From Bacteroidota bacterium (GTDB lineage: Bacteria; Bacteroidota; Ignavibacteria; Ignavibacteriales; Ignavibacteriaceae), in assembly GCA_021824145.1 (NCBI GenBank), contig JAKALM010000001.1, positions 434,001 through 498,000 of the forward strand: a stretch of 64,000 bases of DNA, read 5' to 3'. Below are positions 42,960 through 64,000 of this stretch, piece by piece (positions within the stretch are counted from its first letter, which is position 1; each line of letters begins with the position of its first letter). Below the pieces are notes generated by a model. The model was not told where the DNA came from and searched no databases. It worked only from the letters and a program-made list of their open reading frames with translations. A program made the position numbers and the translations under genes.

Positions 42960-44819
42960 ATGGAAAAAGATAACATCATCTTTAACGGGAATTTTGATTC
43001 GGTAATTGATGAAAGTACTCTTTCTGAAGTAAATACTTATAAATTTAAAAGTCTGGGTAAAGAGCTCTTTCAGCTTGATGTAGATGATCAACCAGATATT
43101 TTAAAAACTATTAAAGAGAACTCCCGTTTTTTTAGTTTTAAGCTGCCAGATGAAATAAGTGAGCAATTCATTAGATATGAAGAAGCGCCATTATTTTGGC
43201 TTAGCCGCTCGCCAATTATTTTGCAGCTTGAAGATCTTTATAAAACTTCTTCAGTCCATTCAACAAACCAAAGTGCATATAAATCAATTAAGGAATTTTA
43301 TACTAAGTGGATTATAATAAAATCTGAAAATGAAAAAAAATATTTTGCTGCCTCTGCTTTAAGTTTGGCTGACAAAAAATCCAGCAGAAATAATTTTCTT
43401 TATTTGATGATTCAAGCAGCCATTTTAGCATATGATAAGCAGTTGTTTAATCCGGTAAAATCAATTGAACTTATAGAGCAGTCTAAGGAAATTCTAAATG
43501 AAAATAAATTAGACGAAAATATACAGCATGAAATTCTATACCTTATAAATTTATATTCGGGCTTTGTTTACTTAAATCAGAAAGAAGTTCAAAAAGCAAA
43601 AAATAGTTTTCTGCAAGCTTTAGAAATAAAACCATTAGGCATTAGCGCAAAATTTTATCTTACTCTTTGCGATGTCCAATTAAGCCAAAGCATAATTAAA
43701 TATGAAATGCTTAGTGAAATATATAATTATGACTTATCCAGGATTGAATATTCAATTGAAATGAATGACATTGCTTTGTATGATCATCTTCTAAAAAATT
43801 CGATAACAAGCAATTTGTTTTATTACCCTGAATTTTCGCTGTCTTATATAATTATATCAGATTTCTTGAAAGACATAAAATCTGAAAATACTTTTGATAT
43901 CAAATCAATTAAAATGAAAATGAATTCATTTAAATCTCTTAATTTAAATGAATATTATAATGAAAATATTTTAAAAGATATTTCTTTTATCGATAAAATA
44001 ATTCAAAACTATTCTTCAAATAATAATGTATTAGTTTTTGGAAGCATGAATAAAATTTTCCAAAAATATAAACTAACTGCCGAAACAGTAGTTAATACAA
44101 TTAAATTAAAATATTATAACCAGGCAAATGAGCGGTTGTTGGTTTTTGATAGGCAAATTCAAGATCGGTACAATGAAATTCAGGAGCTTTCAAAAGAACA
44201 AGAAGAGCATAAGAAAAAATTAAAAGAACGTCTTGACAATACTACGAAAGCAATTGTAAAACGCGCTGATGAAAATGTTGCAATTCTAGAGGAAAGAATA
44301 AAAAACCTCCAGCTAATACAAAGCTTGAATCCTAGAACCGCTTTTCGGAATGCGATGACATATAATTTTATTCTATCGGTTACAGTTTTTCTGATGGGCG
44401 GCTGTGCAGGTTATTCAAATAACATTACCAACAGTCCAGAAAAGATGAATGACATTATTCCTTTAATAGTAATGACTGGTTTGAAATGGGGAGTTATGGC
44501 ATTTACTGTTGGATTATTAATTTCTCTAATATCTGCAGGAATGGCATTGTTAGAAAGCTCAAACCAAAAACAAAGACTAGTCCGTGCAATCAGCTCAATT
44601 AAAGATGAAAAAGATTATCAAGTTGAATACATGAAAAAAGAATATGAAAAAAGCGATAAAGATCATGAAGAAAAGTTTAATAAATTAATTGAAGATAAGA
44701 AGAAACATTTGAACGACATTAAGTCTGAAAGAGAAGAGCTGGATAAAGTCTATAAAAAAGATGCCGAACAAAAATTTCAAGAAGAAACACACAAAATTTT
44801 AGAATTACTGCAAGAATAA
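42960..44819 (+). CDS. Coiled-coil membrane protein with helical repeats, unknown function
   Basis: This 619-residue protein has no signal peptide. Residues 1-390 are helical and contain a TPR-like stretch (IQHEILYLINLYSGFVYLNQKEVQKAKNSFLQAL, about 185-225). A coiled coil follows (QDRYNEIQELSKEQEEHKKKLKERL, about 395-450), then two transmembrane helices (about 470-487 FILSVTVFLMGGCAG and about 508-530 GVMAFTVGLLISLISAGMALLE). A second coiled coil runs to the end (570-619). No family is recognised. It opens the boundary of the glycan region but has its own 598-bp upstream gap. Confidence 0.6.
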   Translation: MEKDNIIFNGNFDSVIDESTLSEVNTYKFKSLGKELFQLDVDDQPDILKTIKENSRFFSFKLPDEISEQFIRYEEAPLFWLSRSPIILQLEDLYKTSSVHSTNQSAYKSIKEFYTKWIIIKSENEKKYFAASALSLADKKSSRNNFLYLMIQAAILAYDKQLFNPVKSIELIEQSKEILNENKLDENIQHEILYLINLYSGFVYLNQKEVQKAKNSFLQALEIKPLGISAKFYLTLCDVQLSQSIIKYEMLSEIYNYDLSRIEYSIEMNDIALYDHLLKNSITSNLFYYPEFSLSYIIISDFLKDIKSENTFDIKSIKMKMNSFKSLNLNEYYNENILKDISFIDKIIQNYSSNNNVLVFGSMNKIFQKYKLTAETVVNTIKLKYYNQANERLLVFDRQIQDRYNEIQELSKEQEEHKKKLKERLDNTTKAIVKRADENVAILEERIKNLQLIQSLNPRTAFRNAMTYNFILSVTVFLMGGCAGYSNNITNSPEKMNDIIPLIVMTGLKWGVMAFTVGLLISLISAGMALLESSNQKQRLVRAISSIKDEKDYQVEYMKKEYEKSDKDHEEKFNKLIEDKKKHLNDIKSEREELDKVYKKDAEQKFQEETHKILELLQE

Positions 44820-45124: not shown

Positions 45125-45216
45125 AATTACCAAAAATTACTTTTCGTTAAATAAGTAAAACGATATTAAACGTAATTAATTGCTATGGTATGAAATTAGT
45201 AATTTTAAAATGCTAT

Positions 45217-46350
45217 ATGCCTTTAAAAATAGATTATCTTGTCGTCGGCTCCGGACTTACTGGAGGAACTATAGCTCGTCTGCTTCATGAAAGTGGACGT
45301 GAAGTAGTAATTCTGGAAAAACGCAATCATATTGGCGGCAACGTATATGATCACTTTCATCCCTCCGGAATTAGAATTCATACCTATGGCCCGCATTATT
45401 TTAGAACAAATTCTGAAAAGCTTTGGAATTTTGTAAACCGGTTCTCCTCATTCTATAAATATGAACCTTCTCTAAAATCATTTGTTGATGGTAACTTCGA
45501 AAACTGGCCTGTTACCGGCAGCTACATAAAAAAAACTGTCGGTATAAACTGGAAACCTTCATTTTACGGTCTTCCGGCAAATTTTGAAGAAGCTTCCTTA
45601 AAGATAATGCCTGAAGAAATTTATCTTAAATTTGTAAAAGGTTATACTGAAAAGCAGTGGGGAGTAAATGCAAAAGAGCTTTCCGCCGAGCTTGTTAAAA
45701 GATTTGATGTAAGAGAAGACGACGAACCGCGCCTGATGAGACATAAATATCAAGGCATCCCTTCTAACGGATACGCTGAGTTTACAAGAAATCTAGTTGA
45801 AGGTATTCCGGTCTTATTAAACGTGAATTATCTTACGAACAAAGATATGTTCGATGTAAAGAAAAAATTAATTTATACCGGCCCGGTTGACGAGTTTTAT
45901 AATTTCCAATACGGAAAACTGGAATACCGCGGACAAAAAAGAGAACATACATATTTTGAGGATATAAATTATTACCAGCCCTGCGGACAGGTAAATTACC
46001 CTATGCCTGAACACGGAAAGCATATTAGAGCTTTGGAATGGAAGCATATGATTCTGAAAGAATTTTCAGACAAAATAAAGGGAACAGTTATTACAAAAGA
46101 AATTCCGTTTACGCCCCAAAATACTGATGAATATGAATATCCTTTCCCTAGTGAGCGGAACAAATTATTATATAAAAAATATGAGGCCAAAGCACGTGAA
46201 GACACAAAACTGCTTATATGCGGCAGGCTCGGCGAGTATAAGTATTACGATATGGATCAAGCTATTGCCAGAGCAATGGAACTGTCAAATGAAATAATTG
46301 AAAACGAATATGCTGCAGAAGAAAATTACAGTACTAGTTTATATTCATAA
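45217..46350 (+). CDS. glf: UDP-galactopyranose mutase
   Basis: The enzyme converts UDP-galactopyranose to UDP-galactofuranose with FAD, supplying Galf for surface glycans. It has the FAD-binding N terminus DYLVVGSGLTGGTIARLL, HIGGNVYDH, THTYGPHYFR-type residues, the conserved GYTEKQWG, and the central YTGPVDEF. The C-terminal block CGRLGEYKYYDMDQAIARAM is diagnostic. ATG 45217 gives 377 aa and the usual start (MPLKIDYLVVG); an upstream ATG at 45190 would add 9 residues. No strong Shine-Dalgarno site is present for either. It overlaps the next gene by about 50 bp. Confidence 0.95.
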   Translation: MPLKIDYLVVGSGLTGGTIARLLHESGREVVILEKRNHIGGNVYDHFHPSGIRIHTYGPHYFRTNSEKLWNFVNRFSSFYKYEPSLKSFVDGNFENWPVTGSYIKKTVGINWKPSFYGLPANFEEASLKIMPEEIYLKFVKGYTEKQWGVNAKELSAELVKRFDVREDDEPRLMRHKYQGIPSNGYAEFTRNLVEGIPVLLNVNYLTNKDMFDVKKKLIYTGPVDEFYNFQYGKLEYRGQKREHTYFEDINYYQPCGQVNYPMPEHGKHIRALEWKHMILKEFSDKIKGTVITKEIPFTPQNTDEYEYPFPSERNKLLYKKYEAKAREDTKLLICGRLGEYKYYDMDQAIARAMELSNEIIENEYAAEENYSTSLYS

Positions 46351-48762: not shown

Positions 48763-49959
48763 ATGTTAGCATCAACAAAAATACTTAAGGTATTAGGTGA
48801 GGAAGATTTAAAGTTTCCAGCGCTGACAAATGTAAACCGAAGTGATGATGAGAAAGTATTTGTTACTCGTCCTTCGTTACCACCGCTTGAAGAATTTATT
48901 CCATATCTTGAAGATATATGGAAAAGCAAGGTGTTAACTAATAATGGTTTCTACCATCAACAACTGGAAATCGAACTAGCGGAATATCTTGGGGTGCCAT
49001 ACATTTCACTTTTTTCAAACGGGACACTTGCACTGCTGAATGCGCTGCAAACATTAAGAATAACCGGCGAAGTAATTACAACACCATTTAGTTTCGTAGC
49101 TACTACACATGCCTTACATTGGAACGGAATAAAACCGGTATTTGTTGATATCGATCCGGTTTACTGCAACCTTGATCCAGCTAAAATAGAAGCTGCAATT
49201 TCTCCGCAAACAACGGCAATCCTTCCGGTGCATGTTTACGGAAATCCTTGTGATGTATATGAAATTGAAAAAATTGCTGATAACTACGGTTTAAAAGTTA
49301 TATACGATGCAAGCCATGCTTTTAATGTAAAGATTAACGGGGAAAGCGTTTTGAATTTTGGAGACTTATCTGTTCTAAGCTTTCATGCTACAAAAGTGTT
49401 TACAACATTTGAAGGAGGGGCTATAATTTGCCATGATGAAAAGACAAAAAAGAGAATCGATTTCTTAAAGAATTTTGGATTTGCCGATGAAGTAACTGTA
49501 GTAGGGCCTGGAATAAATGCAAAGATGAATGAATTTCAGGCAGCGCTGGGCTTACTTCAGTTGAAGTACATTGACGAATATATTTCAAAAAGAAAGGAGA
49601 TTGCTCAAACATATAGAAAAGAATTATCGAGTATAGGGGGAATAAGAATGTTGAGAGAAATAGAAAGTGTAAAACACAATTATGCTTATTTTCCGATTTT
49701 CATCGACGAAGAAAAATATGGTACAAGCAGGGATGATTTATATAACAAATTTAAAGAAAATAATATTTATGCCCGGAGGTATTTTTATCCGCTGATAAGC
49801 CAGTTTCCAACATATAGAGGATTAGAATCAGCGAGTCCTGAAAATTTACCTATAGCTGAAAAAATAACAAAAGAAGTTTTGTGCCTGCCAATTTACCCAA
49901 GCCTTGACTTCGAAGATGTATCAGGTATAGTTAATCTAACAAAAAATTTTGCACTATGA
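48763..49959 (+). CDS. DegT/DnrJ/EryC1-family aminotransferase (aminosugar synthesis)
   Basis: This 398-residue PLP enzyme probably transfers an amino group to a 3- or 4-keto dideoxy-sugar nucleotide. It has FSNGTLALLNALQTL, ITTPFSFVATTHAL, PVFVDIDPVYCNLDP, ILPVHVYGNPCDVYEIEKIA and IYDASHAFNVKI. The PLP lysine is K211 (SFHATKVFTTFEGGAI). Later come NAKMNEFQAALGLLQL and ARRYFYPLISQFPTYR. The N-terminal 34 residues (up to VTRPSLPPLEEFIPY) are longer than usual for VioA/perosamine-type enzymes. The gene overlaps the ATP-grasp gene by 4 bp. The exact sugar is not deducible. Confidence 0.9.
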   Translation: MLASTKILKVLGEEDLKFPALTNVNRSDDEKVFVTRPSLPPLEEFIPYLEDIWKSKVLTNNGFYHQQLEIELAEYLGVPYISLFSNGTLALLNALQTLRITGEVITTPFSFVATTHALHWNGIKPVFVDIDPVYCNLDPAKIEAAISPQTTAILPVHVYGNPCDVYEIEKIADNYGLKVIYDASHAFNVKINGESVLNFGDLSVLSFHATKVFTTFEGGAIICHDEKTKKRIDFLKNFGFADEVTVVGPGINAKMNEFQAALGLLQLKYIDEYISKRKEIAQTYRKELSSIGGIRMLREIESVKHNYAYFPIFIDEEKYGTSRDDLYNKFKENNIYARRYFYPLISQFPTYRGLESASPENLPIAEKITKEVLCLPIYPSLDFEDVSGIVNLTKNFAL

Positions 49960-51239
49960 AAAAAAAGTACAGGATACTTGTTTTTCCGTGTGGGAGCGAA
50001 ATTGGTCTTGAAGTTAATCGCTCTTTAAGATATTCCGCACATATTGAACTTATAGGCGGTAATAGTATAGATGACCATGGTAAGTTTGTATATGAAAATT
50101 ATATCCCTAATATCCCGTTTATTAATTCAAGTAATATCATACAATATTTAAAAAATTTAGTAAATGAAAATCAGATTGATGCAATTTACCCAACTATGGA
50201 TAAGGTAATTTGGAAGTTAAAAAGCAATGAAGACGAATTAGGGTGTAAGGTAATTTCTTCACCTCCAGAAACAACGGAAATATGTTTGTCGAAAAATGAA
50301 ACTTATAAATTTTTTCAAAATAAAATTAAAGTTCCTAAAGTATACAACTCTTTAGAAGATATAGACAATTATCCTGTTTTTATTAAACCAGATGTAGGAT
50401 ATGGGGCAAGGAATATTTTTATAGCAGAAGACGTCAAAGAATTAGATTACTTTTTTAACAAAAAAGAAAAAAAAGATTATATAATTACCGAATATTTAAC
50501 GGGAGATGAATTTACAGTTGATTGCTTTACGGATAAATACGGGAAACTTCGTTTCGCACACGCTCGCAAAAGAAATAGAATTAAAGATGGAATAAGTGTT
50601 AATACCAGTCCGGTAGAAGTGGAAATTAAATTATTTAGTGAAATTGCTGAAGTAATAAATGCTTCTTTGAAATTGAGGGGTGCTTGGTTTTTTCAATTAA
50701 AGAAAAATATCAATGATGAATTAGTACTTTTAGAAGTGGCAGCGAGGTTAGGAGGGTCTTCGGCTTTATTTAGAGGCGTAGGTGTTAATTTTGCTTTATT
50801 AAGTGTTTTTGATGCTTTTGATATTGATGTGGAACTTATTGAAAATAATTATAGAATCGAGCTTGACCGTTCTTTTGATGTTAAATATAAAATGGATATT
50901 ACATATTCAACAGTTTATGTAGACTTTGATGACTGTCTTATAATTGATGGAAAAGTAAACTATGATCTGATAGCTTTTCTTTATAAATCATTAAATGAGG
51001 GGAAAAATATGATTTTATTAACGAAGCATGAAAACAATATTGAAGGAACACTAAACAAATACAGGCTTGGATCTATATTCGATGAAATTATAATTATCTC
51101 CAAAAATGAAGAAAAAAGTAATTACATCTCCATTCGAGATTCAATATTTATTGATGATTCTTTTATTGAAAGGAAGAATGTTTCAAAAAACAAAAATATT
51201 CCTGTATTTGCTCCTGACATGATAGAGAGTTTATTATAA
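49956..51239 (+). CDS. ATP-grasp domain fused to a HAD-like domain
   Basis: This 427-residue protein has an N-terminal half (about 1-310) like carbamoyl-phosphate-synthase-type ATP-grasp ligases: VFPCGSEIGLEVNRSL, FIKPDVGYGARNIF, ITEYLTGDEFTVDCF and LEVAARLGGSSALFRGVG. A HAD-type domain follows at the C terminus (about 315-427): VYVDFDDCLII (motif I, D-x-D-x-C), MILLTKHEN (motif II) and SIFIDDSFIERKNV (motif IV). The ATP-grasp part would ligate a carboxylate to an amine; the HAD part could be phosphatase-like. In this locus it may attach an amino acid or acyl group to the aminosugar of the preceding enzyme (inference). I know of no characterised example. Confidence 0.8.
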   Translation: MKKKYRILVFPCGSEIGLEVNRSLRYSAHIELIGGNSIDDHGKFVYENYIPNIPFINSSNIIQYLKNLVNENQIDAIYPTMDKVIWKLKSNEDELGCKVISSPPETTEICLSKNETYKFFQNKIKVPKVYNSLEDIDNYPVFIKPDVGYGARNIFIAEDVKELDYFFNKKEKKDYIITEYLTGDEFTVDCFTDKYGKLRFAHARKRNRIKDGISVNTSPVEVEIKLFSEIAEVINASLKLRGAWFFQLKKNINDELVLLEVAARLGGSSALFRGVGVNFALLSVFDAFDIDVELIENNYRIELDRSFDVKYKMDITYSTVYVDFDDCLIIDGKVNYDLIAFLYKSLNEGKNMILLTKHENNIEGTLNKYRLGSIFDEIIIISKNEEKSNYISIRDSIFIDDSFIERKNVSKNKNIPVFAPDMIESLL

Positions 51240-51856: not shown

Positions 51857-54800
51857 ATGATAAATAATAAATTAGATGGTTTCATAAATTCAAATGCTCT
51901 TCAAACACATATAGCATTGTATCCAAAGATTGTTATATTCGATGATATTTTTCCCCATCTTCTATCTGCATTCAGAATAGCAGAATTTAATTATTATCTA
52001 AAAAATTTTAAAAATGCACAAATATTTACTGATCCAAAAGCTTTTGCATATATTAATGAGAAACGAAGTTTTAACCAAGTCAAAGCTGAATATGAATCCT
52101 ATTATCCTGAATATAAGGAGAGGATACATCTGTTTAACAAAAACATAGAGTATGCTTTTGATTTAGCATATATGATATTTCTTAATAATGCATTTCGTTT
52201 TATTGATGTAATTGAAAAGAACAATATCCCTTTTGTTTTCACTCTTTATCCCGGTGGAGGTTTTGAATTATATAATAAATATTCTGATGAAAAATTAAAA
52301 AGGATCTGTGCCTCACCGAATCTTAAAAAAATCATTGTAACCCAGTCTATTACAAAAAACTATCTTCTAGAACGCGGATTTATCAATAGTAATAAAATAG
52401 AATTTATATATGGCGGTGTTCTTCCATCTGATTTATTAAATACAGAATTGGTAAAAAAGAAATATTATAAATCAGACAAGAATACTTTTGATATATGCTT
52501 TGTTGCTAACAAGTATATGCCAAAAGGAATTAATAAAGGATATGATGTTTTTATTGAAGTTGCTAATAAATTAAATAAAATATTTGATGACATTAAATTC
52601 CATGTAGTTGGGAATTATGACGAGAATGATATAGACGTAAAAGAAATATCTGACCGTATTACTTTTTATGGTATTAGAAATACAAAATTTTTTCCTGACT
52701 TTTATTCAAAGATGGATATCATTCTATCACCTAATTTACCTTATATACTTTCAGAAGGTAATTTCGACGGATTCCCGACGGGTTGTTGCATTGAGGCTGG
52801 TTTAAGCCAAGTAGCAGTTTTTTGTACAGACGAATTAAAACTGAATAACACATTAAAAGAACGAGAAGAAATTGTTATCATAAAACATGATTCGGATTCT
52901 ATAACTGATATAATTAAATATTATTATAACCATCCTAATGAATTATATATTATTGGTCAAAAAGGACAAACAAAGTTCAAAAAAGTCTTTGATATAAAAA
53001 ATCAAATGTCACCCCGTATGGAAATTTTAACCAATGTTTGGAATGACCTTACTTCTGAAAAATATGTTGAAAGACCAATTGTTAGCGTGTGCATGATAAC
53101 CTATAATCATGAAAAATACATTAGTGAAGCAATTGAAAATATATTGGCACAAAAAACAAATTTCCCGATTGAATTAATAATCGGAGATGATTGTTCTAAA
53201 GATAATACTTCTGATTTGTGTTTTCGATATGAGTTTGCTCATCCCGGAAAAATAAAACTTCTTAAAGCTGAAAAAAATTATGGAATGATTCTTAATTTCC
53301 TCCGTACTTTAAGAGCATGTCGTGGAAAATATATTGCTCTTTGTGAAGGAGATGATTATTGGATTGATCCTGATAAATTGCAGAAACAGGTAGACTTTTT
53401 AGAAATGAATCAGGATAGTGTAGCTTGTTATCACAGCGCAAGATTAATTAATGAGGATCAAGAAGATATAGGTATACTGCCTGGATATGGAGACGCAATT
53501 GATTTAACAATCGATTCTCTCCTTGAAAAAAATAGAACTGCTACAGCTTCTGTTGTTTTTAGAAATGTATTGAGAGAAAGAGATTTTGAAGATATTGGGG
53601 TACTATTCCCTGGCGATTGGGCCTTATATTTTATCCTTACTAAATATGGAAAATTCAATTATTTAGATTTCATAGGTTCAGTATATAGAATACATAAAAA
53701 CGGAGCGTGGACTTCTTTAAGCTCCGATGAAAACAATAACATTAAAATAAAATTTTATGAAGGACTAAAAAAAATATTACCTGTAAATGTAAATGGGTAT
53801 ATAGAGGATAAAATAAAAACATTTAAGAACTGTTTAATTAAAGATAACAAATACACAGACACTGCATATAAAGAAAATCTAAAGATATCTAAAGAAAAAA
53901 ATGAATTTTTGGCACCGGAGCTTAGCATCGATAACATGGATAAATATCTTGTCCGTACCAGTATATTAAATTCAATAAAAGATCACCTTCCTAAATTTTT
54001 CGGAACGTTACTGGACATTGGCTGCGGCCAAATGCCATATAAAAAACTATTGACTTCATTCCCGAGTAAAGTTGAAAAGTATATCGGGATGGATATTGAA
54101 AATCCGCTTTACCAGAAAAATGTTAAACCGGATTTGTTTTGGGACGGGAATAAAATACCCATGGATGATAACAGTGTTGATTGTGTAGTTGCTACAGAAT
54201 TTTTTGAACATGTTCCGTATCCGGAAAAAATTATGCAAGAGGTAAGAAGAGTACTAAAACCGGAAGGAGTTTTATTTTTTACTGTTCCATTCATTTGGTC
54301 GTTGCATTCGATTCCGCATGATGAATACAGGTTCACTCCTTTTGCACTTGAACGAATGTTAAGGAAATCTGGATTTAAAAATATAAACCTCAAACCGTTA
54401 GGTGGATGGGATGCAAGCTTGGCTCAAACCATCGGCTTGTGGGTGCGCAGAAAACCGATGAGCAACGAAGAAAGAAAAAAGTTTTCAGAAAGTCTTTTAC
54501 CGTTTTATAAGAACCTAATTGAGTCTGATCAAATCCCTGAACAGTTCACAGAAGGACAATTGATAACGGGATTATCCGGCACTGCGGTAAAATCAAATAT
54601 TAGCAATTCTGAGAAATTGAAATTTAAAAATTTGGCTGACGACAAAATTTCTCTTGCAATATTTACCCCTAATCTTGGAACGTTATCGGAAACCTTTATT
54701 AAAAAGCATATCGATTTATTGCTGCCGGGAAAAACTGTGGTTGTTACGGGAAACATATTCGACAAGAATTGGGTAGACGTTCCGGTACTTCAAATTCCTT

Positions 54801-57385
54801 ATTCGGAAGGACCTTCAAATTACTCTAAAGAAACCGAAGAAAAGGTTGAAGCATTTCTAATGCAGCACAATGTTACTCACATTCTTGTTGAATACGGTTG
54901 TTACGGTACTGATATAATAGAGCTAAACAGCAGGAAATTAAAACTGCCGATTTTTGTGCACTTTCATGGCGGCGACGCTGCTGCAATGCTGAGAAGAAAA
55001 GAAATGGTGGAACTTTATAAATGGATGGGAGAGCAAGTTACGGGAGTTATTGCAGTTGCTAAACCTATGGCAGAGAGGCTTATAAATATTGGAATACCAG
55101 CTAATAAGGTAATTATAAATCACTACGGAATTGATATTCCTGAACAAGTAGAGGCACAACCGGAAAAATTTCCATGTCATTTTATCTTTGTAGGAAGGCT
55201 TACACCGAAGAAAGCTCCGGCCTTAACTTTAAGAGCATTTGCAAAAGCTTACAGCCGGATTAAAAACATTCACCTCGATATTGTAGGTGATCATTTTTTA
55301 CCTAATCAATCCACATCAATAAAAGCAAAGCTTGAAGATTACATCACAAAAAATAATTTGCACGATGCAGTTACACTCCACGGCTCACGATCAAATGAAT
55401 ATGTAAAGGAAATACTTGCAAAGTCATCGGTTTACGTGCAACATTCCATTACAGTGCCCGAAACCGGAGATGCAGAGGGTTTGCCGAACTCAATACTTGA
55501 AGCTTCAGCAGTCGGATTGCCTGTTTTATCTACATTTCACGAGGGGATTCCGGAGGAGGTAGAAAACTTTAAGACCGGTTTGCTTGTTAACGAATTCGAT
55601 ATAGATACTATGGCGGAGTACATGGTTAAACTTGCAAGCGATCCACTTCTAAGAAAAAAAATGGGATTGGAAGGACGAAAAAAAGTAGAAAACGAATTTT
55701 CAAAAGAAAGATCAATTGAAGGACTTAGGAAGATTATTTTTTCACAGCAGGAATGCAACATGAGACAAAAAATAGATGAGGTAAGGGATTTTATTGCTAA
55801 AGGAAAACTGGAAGAAGCAAAACAACTGTGTTATGAAATGTTAAATGAAGATACTATGTCTGTTGATACCTATTTTCTGCTGGGAGAAATAAATTATATC
55901 TTAAAAAATTACGAACAAGCTTTAAGAATCTATAACTCTGCTTTTGAAATTTCAGCAGAAAGAATAGATGTTGCCGTTAAAATTGTTCTTTCTAATGTCC
56001 TGTTGAATCGTATTGAAGACGCTATTCACTTTTTGAAAAAAGTGATAATTGCTAATCCATACGATCCAAATCTTTTACTTCTTTGTGACAAATTGAAAAT
56101 TGAATTGCAATGGGAAGACATTAAAGACTTTTCTTCAATAAAACTTTACGCCGGAGATATACCTGAAAAAGAAGAATATAAAAATCTTATTGGGCTTTCA
56201 ATTGAAAAGAATGATTTTAGACATATTCGGCATGATGTTACCAAACCTTTTCCGCTTCCTGATAATTCGGTGGACAGTTTTCAAGCCGAGGATGTATTCG
56301 AACATATAAATTACGAAAAGCTTCCGGCAGTGTTCGATGAAATTTACAGAGTATTAAAACCCGGCGCTGCTTTTAGATTATCAATACCGGATTACGGCTG
56401 CGACGTTCTGATTGAAAGAAGCATTAAAGATAAAAACGGTAAAATAATTTTTGATCCGGCAGGCGGCGGAACCATTGACAACCCTGGGCATTTATGGTAC
56501 CCGGTTATAACCAATGTAGAACAGCTACTACAAAAAACAAAGTTCGCTCGAACTGGTAAAATAGAATTTCTTCATCATTACAATCCGGACGGCACTTTTT
56601 TGCTTAAAGATATAGATTATTCCAAAGGATTTGTAATGAGAAATCCCGATAACGATAAGAGAGTTCAGAATCCGAGGCGTCCAATGTCCATGGTTGTTGA
56701 TTTAATTAAAGGGAAAACACCAATGACTGGAAATGATTTTAGTACTGCGCCGAAAAAAACGTATTATGACGAAAAATATTTTAATTTTCAAAAGAAGATA
56801 GGTGAATTTGGGGGAGTAGCAAATAGATTTAAATTTACTGATTTAATATCTCCTACTGATACTGTTATTGATTACGGGTGCGGTGGGGGATTTTTATTGA
56901 AAAACTTAAATTGTTCTGCAAAAATTGGTGTGGAAATAAACAAAATTGCTGCGGATCATGCTAAGTCATTGGGTATAAATGTTTATGAAAACATTAGTGA
57001 TATACCTGATAATATTGCAGATGTCATTGTTTCCAACCATGCTTTAGAGCATGTGTATTCACCGCTTGATGAACTAAAAAAATTACATACAAAATTAAAA
57101 AAAAGCGGGAAAATTATTTTTGTCGTTCCACATCAGGATACCCGAGAAAATTATAATCCCGAAGATGTTAATAAACATTTGTACACTTGGAATCAATTGA
57201 CATTGGGAAATTTATTTTCTTCTGCCGGATATAAGGTTTTAAATGTACAAGCTATACAACATATGTGGCCTGCAAATTATGAAGAAGTGTTTTTAAAATA
57301 CGGAGAACAACAGTTCCATAATATTTGTCATCAAAATGCTGTGCAAAATAATAATTATCAAATACGTATCGTTGCAGAAAGATAG
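51857..57385 (+). CDS. Giant multidomain glycan enzyme: GT, GT2, MT, GT4, TPR, MT, MT
   Basis: One uninterrupted frame of 1842 residues. Modules in order: a GT-B-like glycosyltransferase (about 20-400; CFVANKYMPKGINKGYDV); a GT2 (405-620; VSVCMITYNHEKYIS, GDDCSKDNTS, CEGDDYWIDPDKL); a SAM methyltransferase (715-865; LLDIGCGQMPYKKLL, ATEFFEHVPYPEKIM); a GT4 (930-1295; FVGRLTPKKAPALTL, ETGDAEGLPNSILEASAVGLP); TPR-like repeats (1300-1410; AKQLCYEMLNEDTMSVDTYF); a second methyltransferase (1430-1525; FQAEDVFEHINYEKL); and a third (1660-1842; IDYGCGGGFLLKNLN, NHALEHVYSPLDEL). Start ATG 51857 is weakly supported. It lies 6 bp upstream of the next gene. Confidence 0.85.
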   Translation: MINNKLDGFINSNALQTHIALYPKIVIFDDIFPHLLSAFRIAEFNYYLKNFKNAQIFTDPKAFAYINEKRSFNQVKAEYESYYPEYKERIHLFNKNIEYAFDLAYMIFLNNAFRFIDVIEKNNIPFVFTLYPGGGFELYNKYSDEKLKRICASPNLKKIIVTQSITKNYLLERGFINSNKIEFIYGGVLPSDLLNTELVKKKYYKSDKNTFDICFVANKYMPKGINKGYDVFIEVANKLNKIFDDIKFHVVGNYDENDIDVKEISDRITFYGIRNTKFFPDFYSKMDIILSPNLPYILSEGNFDGFPTGCCIEAGLSQVAVFCTDELKLNNTLKEREEIVIIKHDSDSITDIIKYYYNHPNELYIIGQKGQTKFKKVFDIKNQMSPRMEILTNVWNDLTSEKYVERPIVSVCMITYNHEKYISEAIENILAQKTNFPIELIIGDDCSKDNTSDLCFRYEFAHPGKIKLLKAEKNYGMILNFLRTLRACRGKYIALCEGDDYWIDPDKLQKQVDFLEMNQDSVACYHSARLINEDQEDIGILPGYGDAIDLTIDSLLEKNRTATASVVFRNVLRERDFEDIGVLFPGDWALYFILTKYGKFNYLDFIGSVYRIHKNGAWTSLSSDENNNIKIKFYEGLKKILPVNVNGYIEDKIKTFKNCLIKDNKYTDTAYKENLKISKEKNEFLAPELSIDNMDKYLVRTSILNSIKDHLPKFFGTLLDIGCGQMPYKKLLTSFPSKVEKYIGMDIENPLYQKNVKPDLFWDGNKIPMDDNSVDCVVATEFFEHVPYPEKIMQEVRRVLKPEGVLFFTVPFIWSLHSIPHDEYRFTPFALERMLRKSGFKNINLKPLGGWDASLAQTIGLWVRRKPMSNEERKKFSESLLPFYKNLIESDQIPEQFTEGQLITGLSGTAVKSNISNSEKLKFKNLADDKISLAIFTPNLGTLSETFIKKHIDLLLPGKTVVVTGNIFDKNWVDVPVLQIPYSEGPSNYSKETEEKVEAFLMQHNVTHILVEYGCYGTDIIELNSRKLKLPIFVHFHGGDAAAMLRRKEMVELYKWMGEQVTGVIAVAKPMAERLINIGIPANKVIINHYGIDIPEQVEAQPEKFPCHFIFVGRLTPKKAPALTLRAFAKAYSRIKNIHLDIVGDHFLPNQSTSIKAKLEDYITKNNLHDAVTLHGSRSNEYVKEILAKSSVYVQHSITVPETGDAEGLPNSILEASAVGLPVLSTFHEGIPEEVENFKTGLLVNEFDIDTMAEYMVKLASDPLLRKKMGLEGRKKVENEFSKERSIEGLRKIIFSQQECNMRQKIDEVRDFIAKGKLEEAKQLCYEMLNEDTMSVDTYFLLGEINYILKNYEQALRIYNSAFEISAERIDVAVKIVLSNVLLNRIEDAIHFLKKVIIANPYDPNLLLLCDKLKIELQWEDIKDFSSIKLYAGDIPEKEEYKNLIGLSIEKNDFRHIRHDVTKPFPLPDNSVDSFQAEDVFEHINYEKLPAVFDEIYRVLKPGAAFRLSIPDYGCDVLIERSIKDKNGKIIFDPAGGGTIDNPGHLWYPVITNVEQLLQKTKFARTGKIEFLHHYNPDGTFLLKDIDYSKGFVMRNPDNDKRVQNPRRPMSMVVDLIKGKTPMTGNDFSTAPKKTYYDEKYFNFQKKIGEFGGVANRFKFTDLISPTDTVIDYGCGGGFLLKNLNCSAKIGVEINKIAADHAKSLGINVYENISDIPDNIADVIVSNHALEHVYSPLDELKKLHTKLKKSGKIIFVVPHQDTRENYNPEDVNKHLYTWNQLTLGNLFSSAGYKVLNVQAIQHMWPANYEEVFLKYGEQQFHNICHQNAVQNNNYQIRIVAER

Positions 57386-59845: not shown

Positions 59846-59922
59846 ATGAATTTTAATCCATTTGAAATTGTTTAATGAAGATAGACTTTAAAATTTGAAT
59901 CTTGTACTACTTAAGGCTGAAA

Positions 59923-62900
59923 ATGAATTCAGATAGTTTACCAAAAATATCGATTATTACCCCTTCATATAATCAAGGAGAATTTTTAGAGGATACGATA
60001 AAAAGCGTTATCGAACAAAAATATCCTAATCTTGAATATATAATTATTGACGGCGGCTCTACGGATAACAGCGTTGATATAATTAAAAAATACGAATCAC
60101 ATTTTTCTTATAGTGTAAGTGAAAAAGATAACGGGCAAACTGCTGCAATAAACAAGGGATTTAAAATTGCTACCGGTGATATAATAGCTTGGCTGAATTC
60201 AGATGATTTTTATTATCCGGGCGCTCTAAACCTTATTGCTGAGATGTATCTGTCTGATTCTGAAGCCGGACTTTATATCGGTAACGGTGCGGTTGCAGAT
60301 AAAAAAGGAAATCGAATCAGGAGATATTCGCATAATATCATATTTGATTACGATACTCTTCTGAAAGGTTCTAATTACATACTACAGCCCTCAACTTTCA
60401 TTAATGCAAAGGCAATTAAAGAAGTTGGTTTACTGGATGAATCGTTGCACTATGCAATGGACCTGGAATACTGGTTTAGGGTTGCCAGTAAATTTGGTGT
60501 TTTAACTGTCAATGAAGAGCTTTCAGCTTATAGATGGTATGATGAAATAAAAACAAAAACCGGCGGCTTAAAACGTTGGGTAGAGCAATGGCAAATAATA
60601 AATAAGTTTTCAAACTTACAGATAACTCCCGGATTACTTGTGGAATTTTTTAATGTCCTGCAGGAAAGAGAAGTAATAGATCATTTGGGGCTAGATATAA
60701 GTGATTTTTCTAATAAAGTTAAAATGCAATTTTATCAAACTATGCAGCAGATGCTTAATATGGATGAGTGCATACCGAGAAAAGGGAACGGAAAAATTTA
60801 TTATTCTCAGAAAAACAAAAATAATATTAAATATAATAAGAGCTCAAATATATCATCTATAAATTTATTAAAGTCAAATAGGAGTAATCCAAAATTAGAT
60901 ATTGTTTTACAGGTTACGGGTGAACATGCATGGGGAGTTGGGAAAGGTTGGGAAAACGCTGCTAAAAAAATAGGAGTTCATAATAAAACTTTTGCTCCTA
61001 AAGCAAATTGGAATGATACTAATCTTCAATACGATGATGGTCTTGAGAAATATTTAAAAGGAGATAATAGCGATATTTTATTTCTTGCGGGATTTGATTG
61101 GCATTCTCAAGTTTTACATAGAAATAGTCATTGGAAGGATTTGTTTTTTAAATCCAAAGCAAAAAAAGTTTTATACATTCAGGAGTCGATAGTCAATAAT
61201 TGCAAGTTGTTTAATACCGATGAAATGAAATTAGCATTTCAATCAGCTGCTGAAATTGCCGATCTAATTGTATATACGGATTTTTTCGATAAGGATTTTA
61301 TTGAAAATATAAAACTTCCTTCAATATGGCAGCCATTTGGAGTGGATGATTCGGTATTTTATCCAAAAGTAAATTTAGGAAATAGAATTCATAAACCATT
61401 TTTTAGAGGGAAATATAATCCATTTTACACGGATGCAACTTATGAAGAAAGGAGAGTACTACTAAAGTATTTGCTCGATAATCGCTTAATTGAATTAATT
61501 CCTTATAGTGATAAAGCTGTAAGTGTTGAGGAAATCGTATCGGATTATAATAAATATAAAATAGCTATTAATTTACCATCTATATTTTCAAATCATCCAA
61601 CCAGAGTTTTTGAAGCGTTAGCCTGTGGGAATGCGCTAATTACAAATCGAACTAATATTAAAAAGATTGATGATCTATTTGAAGATAAAGAACATTTAAT
61701 CTATTACAACAACCAGGAGAGCCTTAGTGAAGCTATAGAATTATTACAAAATGATAGTAATCTACTTGCAAAAATATCCCAACAAGGCCATGATTATGTG
61801 AAAGAAAATTTTACATTAGATAAGCATTTATCAGTAATATTAAAGGAATTAGAAAACATTAATCCCGGTAGAAAAGATAATAGCATAAAATCTAAAGTAA
61901 TAAGCACTGGAAAACAGAAGGAAATAATTATCGACGGCGTGATCTTTCAATTACAAAAAAATAGACCGGCTGGCATTTACAGAGTATGGCAATCATTGTT
62001 AAATGAAATTTCAAAAACAGATTCTGCAAATAATATTTTACTGCTTGATAGAAACAACACCGCACCTGATTTCCCAAACATTAAGAAGAGAAATATATTT
62101 CTGTATAACGAATTTCACTATGAAGCAGACTCAGCCTACTTACAGGATATATGTGACGAAGAAAATGGAGAGCTTTTTATAAGTACATATTATACTTCAC
62201 CGACAAAAACTCACTCTGTTTTAATGCTTCACGATTTTACTCCAGAAATTATGCAATGGGATCTTACCATACCGGAATGGCAAAGTAAAATTAAGGCGAT
62301 TTTGAAGGCCAATTCATACTTGTCGGTTTCGGAATCTACAAAAAAAGATTTCAGCAAGATTTATAAAAGTCAACTAAATCGAGAAATCTATGTTGTTCCA
62401 AATGCAGTCTCAGAAAATTTTAAAGTAAAGACAGAAGAAGAAATACTAAGATTCAAAAAGAAGTATGGTATAACCAAACCGTATTTTATAATAACTGGAT
62501 ATAGAGGAAAATATAAAAACACTATTCAATTCTTTAAGGCGTTCAGTCAATTAAAAAATAAAGAGAAATATGAAATTTTAATGACTGGAGGAGTACCACA
62601 AATTGAAAATGAATTTATTCCTTATCTTAACAAAATTAAATATCAGGTGGTTTATTTAAGTGATGATGATTTAGCCACGGCTTACAGCGGTGCAGTGGCT
62701 CTTGTTTATCCCTCCAAATATGAAGGCTTCGGATTGCCTGTGCTTGAGGCAATGAGCAGCGGTTGCCCGGTTATTACATGCAGAAATTCTTCTTTACCTG
62801 AAGTTGCCGGAGATGCCGCTTTATATATAAGGGAAGACGATGTTAACTCCATGAAGCAAGCTTTGCTGAATATACATAATAATAGTTTAAGAGAAAGCTT

Positions 62901-64000
62901 GATTAAAAAGGGAATTGAAAACGCTAAAAAGTTTTCTTGGACCCAAAGCAAGGATATACTTACCAACGCATTAAATAAAATTATTGAATCACTCAAAAAT
63001 GTACCGCTAAATTTTTCCCAACCGCTCGATGACCTGAATAAGCTATTTTATACAATATTAAAAGACGGAAAGCTCGGTAATGCATTTACGGAATTGCAAA
63101 CACAGCTTATTGCAGGTTCGAATGGAGATGTAGAAAAATTAAAAACTGCTGAAGAAACACTAACTATTTTTGACGATACTTTCTTTAAGCGATCATTGAA
63201 GTCAATTATTGTTGCAGATACAAATGACCCTTATTATTGTTATATAATGGGCTTTAACTATTATGAACATGGTTTATTGAAAGAAGCGTTCGAAGCTTAT
63301 TTGAAAGCAATTAATCTAGGTTTGACGCACTGGAGAATTGGTTATCTTGTTTCCCTAGTTGCGCTAGATCTAAATAATATACAATTTGCCAGAGATATGC
63401 TTGGTAAGGTGCTGGAAGCTAAGGTTGATTATAAAGAAGCAAAAATTCTTTTAGATAAAATAGAGAAACCGGATCGGGATAATTGTTCTTTTCGCGTTTC
63501 AGCAATCGTTTCAACTTATAATTCCGAAAAATTTATTCGGGGATGTCTGGATGATTTGATTAATCAAACCTTGTATAAAAAAGGTGAACTGGAAATTGTA
63601 GTAGTTAATTCAGGTTCACAACAAAACGAAGAGGAGATTGTAAAAGAGTTCCAGCTGAATTATTCAAACATAAAATATGTCAAAACTAAAAACAGAGAAA
63701 CGGTCTACAAGGCATGGAACAGAGGAATTAAAGAAGCTTCGGGCAAATATATTACCAATGCCAATACGGATGACAGGCATAAAGAAGATGCACTTGAAAT
63801 TCTTGCATCTGCACTTGACGAGAATAAGAATATTTCGTTGGTATATGCGGATTCTAAAGTAACTAACCAGGAGAATGGTAAGTTTGATGATGCAGCTATA
63901 ACTGGATTTCTATTATGGCCTGAATTTGATCCGCTTAATTTATTTAAAATTTGTTATGTCGGTCCCCAGCCGATGTGGAAGAAATCTCTTCATCTTAAAT
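59923..64000 (+). CDS. Very large multi-glycosyltransferase, N-terminal 1359 residues (gene runs off the right edge)
   Basis: From ATG 59923 the frame is open with no stop to 64000. Domains: GT2 (1-235; [43 protein letters not shown]); a CgeB-like or GT4-like glycosyltransferase (327-646; [38 protein letters not shown]); a GT4 (665-1026; [37 protein letters not shown]); TPR-like helices (1050-1185); then a second GT2 beginning at 1191 ([33 protein letters not shown]). It is the fourth large glycosyltransferase in a row. It probably continues beyond the window. Confidence 0.85.
   Translation, partial: [1359 protein letters not shown]

Follow-up and report, generated by a model that had tools for sequence, protein, structure and literature searches.

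A 1842-aa chain of glycosyltransferase, methyltransferase and TPR modules in a probable flagellin glycosylation island of the Ignavibacteriales

In Proteobacteria and Firmicutes, glycosylation of flagellin is well known and is mostly carried out by separate enzymes. The islands described in Enterobacteriaceae and Geobacillus, in the available portions of those reports, place glycosyltransferase (GT), sugar-nucleotide, aminotransferase and methyltransferase (MT) genes beside flagellin, with gene content that is highly variable between relatives (PMC4875605, PMC5109656). According to the same portions, GT41 and one GT2 enzyme of such islands carry an MT domain (PMC4875605), and methylated flagellin glycans of Pseudomonas syringae and Clostridium botulinum are cited (PMC5109656). 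FlmG of Caulobacter, a protein of 596 aa with one GT, joins a TPR domain to the GT for cytoplasmic flagellin glycosylation, and modification of flagellin depends on this TPR domain, to which flagellin binds (PMC7591256). WbdD, WbbB and Klebsiella O7 ORF6 are single chains that include a methyltransferase, with several GT modules in the WbbB-like and O7 enzymes, and this type features a coiled-coil ruler, termination of a lipid-linked O-antigen and an ABC transporter (PMC11231755). Flagellin islands are already known, as are flagellin glycosyltransferases guided by a TPR and fusions of GT with MT, those of the WbdD/WbbB type from O-antigens. No description of the size, modularity and recurrence of the giant proteins reported below from flagellin islands of the order Ignavibacteriales was found in the open-access literature. 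Open-access full texts treating Ignavibacteria, flagellin and glycosylation jointly were not found, open-access texts on Ignavibacteria and flagellin were off topic by title and abstract, and GT-domain fusions in flagellin glycosylation were not found in open-access literature.

The window analysed here, a stretch of 64,000 nucleotides on a contig of 667 kb, contains an uninterrupted frame with an ATG start that encodes a protein of 1842 aa (Table 1). The module order was GT-B, GT2, MT1, GT4, TPR, MT2 and MT3, and the single multi-module chain proposed by the first-pass annotation was borne out by the ORF, by Pfam and by an AlphaFold model of the TPR and MT2. Pfam matches were Glyco_trans_1_2 (best stretch 244-383), Glycos_transf_2 (410-528), Methyltransf_11 (719-808), Glyco_transf_4 (1026-1094) together with Glycos_transf_1 (1109-1275), and Methyltransf_23 (1666-1795); Methyltransf_11 was matched by three stretches in the protein including one between the TPR and the C-terminus. 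Both class I SAM features, motif I and the acidic residue, were kept in MT1 (acidic residue in YIGMD at 742) and in MT3 (in GVE at 1691). Among solved structures, the GT2 module was nearest to chondroitin synthase (2z86/2z87, E about 2e-15), the GT4 module to a phosphatidylinositol-mannoside mannosyltransferase and MT1 to LahSB. Chondroitin synthase and other dual-GT2 polymerases have two GTs per chain, carry neither MT nor TPR and act in capsule polymerisation. The TPR of the 1842-aa protein scored under the Pfam cut-offs, and an AlphaFold model of residues 1290-1640 gave TPR helix pairs at pLDDT of about 85-95 that aligned with PDB TPR domains at Z 13-15 including SycD, PP5 and O-GlcNAc transferases, a likeness of fold and not of function.

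Assembly error as the source of the fusion was ruled out, and the initial view of one continuous gene upheld, because an independent genome of the same genus-level group (G004) encodes residues 408-1631 within one 4710-aa frame at 69% identity. The protein joins TPR and GT as FlmG does, but has three GTs and three MT folds, and because its short TPR is internal and further modules are present the layout differs and it was not filed as FlmG. The 1322-aa TPR-GT9-GT4 neighbour is the nearest to FlmG in layout.

Table 1. Features of the 1842-aa protein and of neighbouring genes; coordinates are positions in the window and residue numbers refer to the 1842-aa protein
Feature	Coordinates	Strand	Basis or remark
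619-aa protein	42960..44819	+	No Pfam/NCBIfam match; helical TPR-like N-terminus, long coiled coil, membrane segment
UDP-galactopyranose mutase	45190..46350	+	Pfam GLF, 3.7e-49
GT2-GT2 protein, 731 aa	46298..48493	+	Pfam
DegT/DnrJ/EryC1 sugar aminotransferase	48763..49959	+	Pfam; 73% identity to the G010 island copy
ATP-grasp ligase-like protein	49956..51239	+	Pfam, NCBIfam
Standalone methyltransferase, 180 aa	51255..51797	+	Pfam
Modular GT/MT/TPR protein, 1842 aa	51857..57385	+	ORF list, Pfam, G004 comparison
Module 1, GT-B glycosyltransferase, residues 21-390	51917..53026	+	Pfam Glyco_trans_1_2; no homologous segment in the G004 giant
Module 2, GT2 glycosyltransferase, residues 405-640	53069..53776	+	DDCS at 444, DxD-like GDDY at 498; about 40% identity to G004
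MT1-GT4-TPR-MT2 block, residues 681-1631	53897..56749	+	79% identity to G004; composition unlike the surroundings in both genomes
Module 3, class I SAM methyltransferase MT1, residues 690-862	53924..54442	+	Motif I LDIGCG at 719
Module 4, GT4 glycosyltransferase, residues 930-1290	54644..55726	+	E-x7-E motif at 1207
Module 5, TPR, residues 1296-1412	55742..56092	+	AlphaFold model, PDB TPR matches
Module 6, methyltransferase-fold MT2, residues 1416-1625	56102..56731	+	Non-canonical motif I KLYAGDIPE
Module 7, class I SAM methyltransferase MT3, residues 1635-1830	56759..57346	+	Motif I IDYGCG at 1671
N-domain-GT4-TPR protein, 817 aa	57392..59845	+	Begins a few bases past the 1842-aa gene
GT2/GT4/GT2-GT2-GT2 giant, 2100 aa, 5' part	59902..64000	+	Extends past the window end

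The 1842-aa gene lies in a same-strand run of GT, sugar-nucleotide and sugar-modifying genes that is contiguous with flagellin, fliS and fliD, and such runs were likewise contiguous in relatives. Beyond the window (L009) the same strand carries the remainder of the 2100-aa giant followed by a 281-aa TPR gene, a 1322-aa TPR-GT9-GT4-TPR-GT9 protein, a 501-aa GT2-TPR protein, flagellin, fliS (assigned from size and position) and fliD. As the run reaches flagellin, fliS and fliD, the locus is most likely a flagellin glycosylation island of an Ignavibacteriales-type bacterium. Since the 1842-aa gene is about 16 kb upstream of flagellin, its membership in the island rests on the same-strand continuity and on the relatives. 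The 501-aa, TPR-GT9-GT4 and 619-aa genes were kept across relatives and the giants in the middle varied. In its gene types and variability the locus resembles the islands of Enterobacteriaceae and Geobacillus, which belong to different phyla and for which the available portions of the reports describe GT and MT genes that are separate, or a single GT with an MT domain, but no many-module chains of 1000-4700 aa.

Several neighbours had features of their own. The 619-aa protein recurs upstream in these islands (13 relatives, 23-49% identity) and its confident, helical model has a TPR-like N-terminal part and very long coiled coils. A fold search with it gave no match at E <= 0.001 and weak TPR-like matches only, a result that excludes no family; judged from the model, the protein could be a membrane anchor for the glycosylation enzymes. 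It was the only island protein with a membrane segment in a simple hydropathy scan. The C-terminal part of the ATP-grasp protein may be HAD-like, as seen by eye, and no homolog of this protein was found in the other islands examined. The 501-aa GT2-TPR protein (L009:8260-9765), beside flagellin, is a conserved island marker whose nearest NCBIfam model was the peptide S-glycosyltransferase SunS, under the model cut-off, and whose named relatives were from Ignavibacteria/Ignavibacteriales and Melioribacteraceae, including the isolate Stygiobacter electus. These relatives point to the Ignavibacteriales as the probable order of the bacterium that carries the window.

GT/MT/TPR giants of 1000-4710 aa were frequent upstream of flagellin in relatives, within a recurring series of a giant ORF, often a 1030-aa TPR-GT9-GT4 protein, an approximately 501-aa GT2-TPR protein and flagellin. 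G004 and G033 likewise have flagellin downstream of their homologous giants. Of the 51 named loci nearest by their 501-aa gene, flagellin was present in 40/51, a GT/MT frame of at least 1000 aa with at least three modules in 31/51 and both in 24/51; many of these loci end at contig edges and some are the same contigs as unnamed loci. Twelve genomes hand-picked as a contrast and not as a survey, six per side, had 18/136 GT2 matches in frames of at least 1000 aa where flagellated (17/18 of these inside the flagellin island) against 0/130 where flagellin was lacking. The sole exception to the flagellin association was a 1569-aa frame with a GT2 match off the flagellin contig (G024:C58:83586). The largest frame found was that of 4710 aa in G004 (L040:638-14770), upstream of flagellin and with approximately 11 GT and MT modules. 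G130 has, at the corresponding place in its island, a 1538-aa giant (L179:2855-7471) in which a PGA_cap (bacterial capsule synthesis) domain is joined to methyltransferases.

The module order, noted at first sight as one not recognised, was not met in its exact form in the other island giants compared, but comparable giants are common beside flagellin in this order, and a similar alternation (GT2-MT-GT2-MT-GT4-TPR) occurred in G012. A scan of the genome contigs with the whole protein returned no relative because the patterns were derived from a single sequence.

The first-pass annotation had also suggested methyl end-capping of an O-antigen-like chain. Under such a reading the protein would be a surface-polysaccharide (O-antigen or capsule) polymerase-terminator, its GTs polymerising a lipid-linked chain that receives methyl caps in the manner of WbdD/WbbB. 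MT-GT fusions of this sort are found in Klebsiella O12 and O7 (PMC11231755), UDP-galactopyranose mutase and DegT sugars are compatible with O-antigens, and G032, which has no clear flagellin, carries standalone homologs of both MT1 and MT3 a short distance apart, from which it follows that such modules also serve other glycans. However, no Wzx, Wzy, ABC transporter (Wzm/Wzt) or initiating phosphoglycosyltransferase was found among the island proteins scanned from 42960 to flagellin, the stretch modelled between GT4 and MT2 is a TPR and not the coiled coil of WbdD-type enzymes, the gene run terminates in flagellin, fliS and fliD, and giant frames track flagellin presence in the six versus six genomes. 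The capping proposal was therefore abandoned, and a role in O-antigen or capsule synthesis is considered unlikely.

Relative to the G004 giant, residues 1-407 and 1632-1842 had no counterpart, residues 408-680 were 40% identical and residues 681-1631 were 79% identical. The neighbouring island proteins, flagellin and FliD were 37-49% identical between the two genomes, FliS 62% and an NtrC-type regulator further on 80%. GC3 along the frame was 0.19 (1-407), 0.20 (408-680), 0.31 (681-1631) and 0.21 (1632-1842), in agreement with the AT-richer ends and mosaic origin initially suspected by eye. The 681-1631 block had a GC3 of 0.33 in G004 although the hosts differ in composition (window GC 0.315, G004 contig about 0.40). 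Given the 79% identity of the block against 37-49% for its neighbours, and a GC3 shared despite the differing hosts, the block looks to have been exchanged between lineages and imported; slow evolution could also account for its conservation.

Other modules had relatives in different surroundings. MT3 shared 57% identity with the C-terminus of the 1538-aa G130 giant, which is followed by an 817-like gene as is the 1842-aa gene, and 53% with a G032 gene of 188 aa that stands alone. A G008 giant with other enzymes contained a stretch 74% identical to the TPR tail of the 817-aa neighbour, MT2 recurred in a G033 giant behind a different N-terminal part, and the 281-aa TPR gene corresponds to the C-terminus of giants in other islands. 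Junctions were at domain borders in each of these compared cases, those with G004, G033, G130, G032 and G008 and that of the 281-aa TPR gene, and the alignments indicate that modules are swapped at domain borders among the giants.

Three SAM methyltransferase cores had originally been called in the protein. The motifs of MT1 and MT3 were kept, but MT2 has the fold only, without the usual SAM-binding motif. The AlphaFold model of MT2 matched the SAM methyltransferase 2p8j in Foldseek (E 3.4e-5), and a PDB profile search gave weak MT matches only (best E 0.011). Motif I of MT2 reads KLYAGDIPEKEEYKNLIGLS (KLYAGDIPE), against KLHLGCGxxxxxGYINID in distant relatives from giants of the order, so that the glycine-rich motif I is missing along with the acidic residue after strand 2. 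MT2 was detected in three genomes only, all with the altered motif I, and an MT2 profile run against 296 genomes of the phylum matched its own genome alone. MT2 thus retains the fold, but its SAM role is probably altered or lost, and a SAM-independent function is likely among the options.

The lost motif I of MT2 and the shifts in base composition along the frame might be taken to mean that the gene is decaying or chimeric and arose by accidental fusion, with several modules inactive. This is very improbable, as the frame extends for 5.5 kb without a stop or frameshift, the catalytic motifs of GT2, GT4, MT1 and MT3 are intact, MT2 is 67-84% identical among its three genomes and another species encodes residues 681-1631 without a break in the frame.

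We favour, with a probability of about 0.78, a reading of the 1842-aa protein as a cytoplasmic multi-enzyme of the flagellin island, in which the GTs would extend and MT1 and MT3 would methylate a flagellin O-glycan, the TPR would dock flagellin or partners, and giants of this type evolve by module swapping. The ORF, its modules, the island setting, the recurrence and the module swapping are direct observations, from which we infer flagellin as the substrate, as well as the reaction order, the methylation targets and the docking role of the TPR. The glycan would probably be started by the conserved right-hand proteins, TPR-GT9-GT4 and GT2-TPR (the 501-aa, SunS-like protein), and elaborated by the variable left-hand giants including the 1842-aa protein. 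Before flagellin is exported, the GT2, GT4 and GT-B modules would add successive sugars to the O-glycan on its monomers, MT1 and MT3 would methylate sugar hydroxyls of this glycan, and the TPR, by analogy with that of FlmG, would hold flagellin or partner island proteins in the cytoplasm. Swaps of whole modules at linkers would then give rise to species-specific flagellar glycans.

Within the same island, the protein might instead methylate flagellin lysines or other protein residues in a FliB-like manner and not sugars. Flagellin methylation is known in enterobacterial islands, according to the available portion of that report (PMC4875605), and the TPR that shares a chain with the MTs may hold flagellin. 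MT1 and MT3, however, belong to generic class I families that are also found as single genes beside other glycan genes, and neither the Pfam matches nor the 25 best NCBIfam matches included a FliB model, which leaves protein methylation quite unlikely relative to methylation of the flagellin glycan.

A broader and tentative view, possible rather than probable, is that flagellar glycans of the Ignavibacteriales are built on assembly-line-like GT/MT/TPR giants whose module content would dictate the glycan, that modules and blocks would be exchanged between species at linkers with fast diversification of the flagellar surface as a result, and that MT2 would be a repurposed fold peculiar to the giants. 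The order as a whole appears to have shifted to multi-enzymes of giant size and modular build that are encoded beside flagellin, reach 4710 aa and show clear module swapping. They form a natural series in which to ask if glycan structure is encoded by the order of modules, and bear also on how TPR docking directs protein glycosylation and on how glycan diversity evolves through module recombination.
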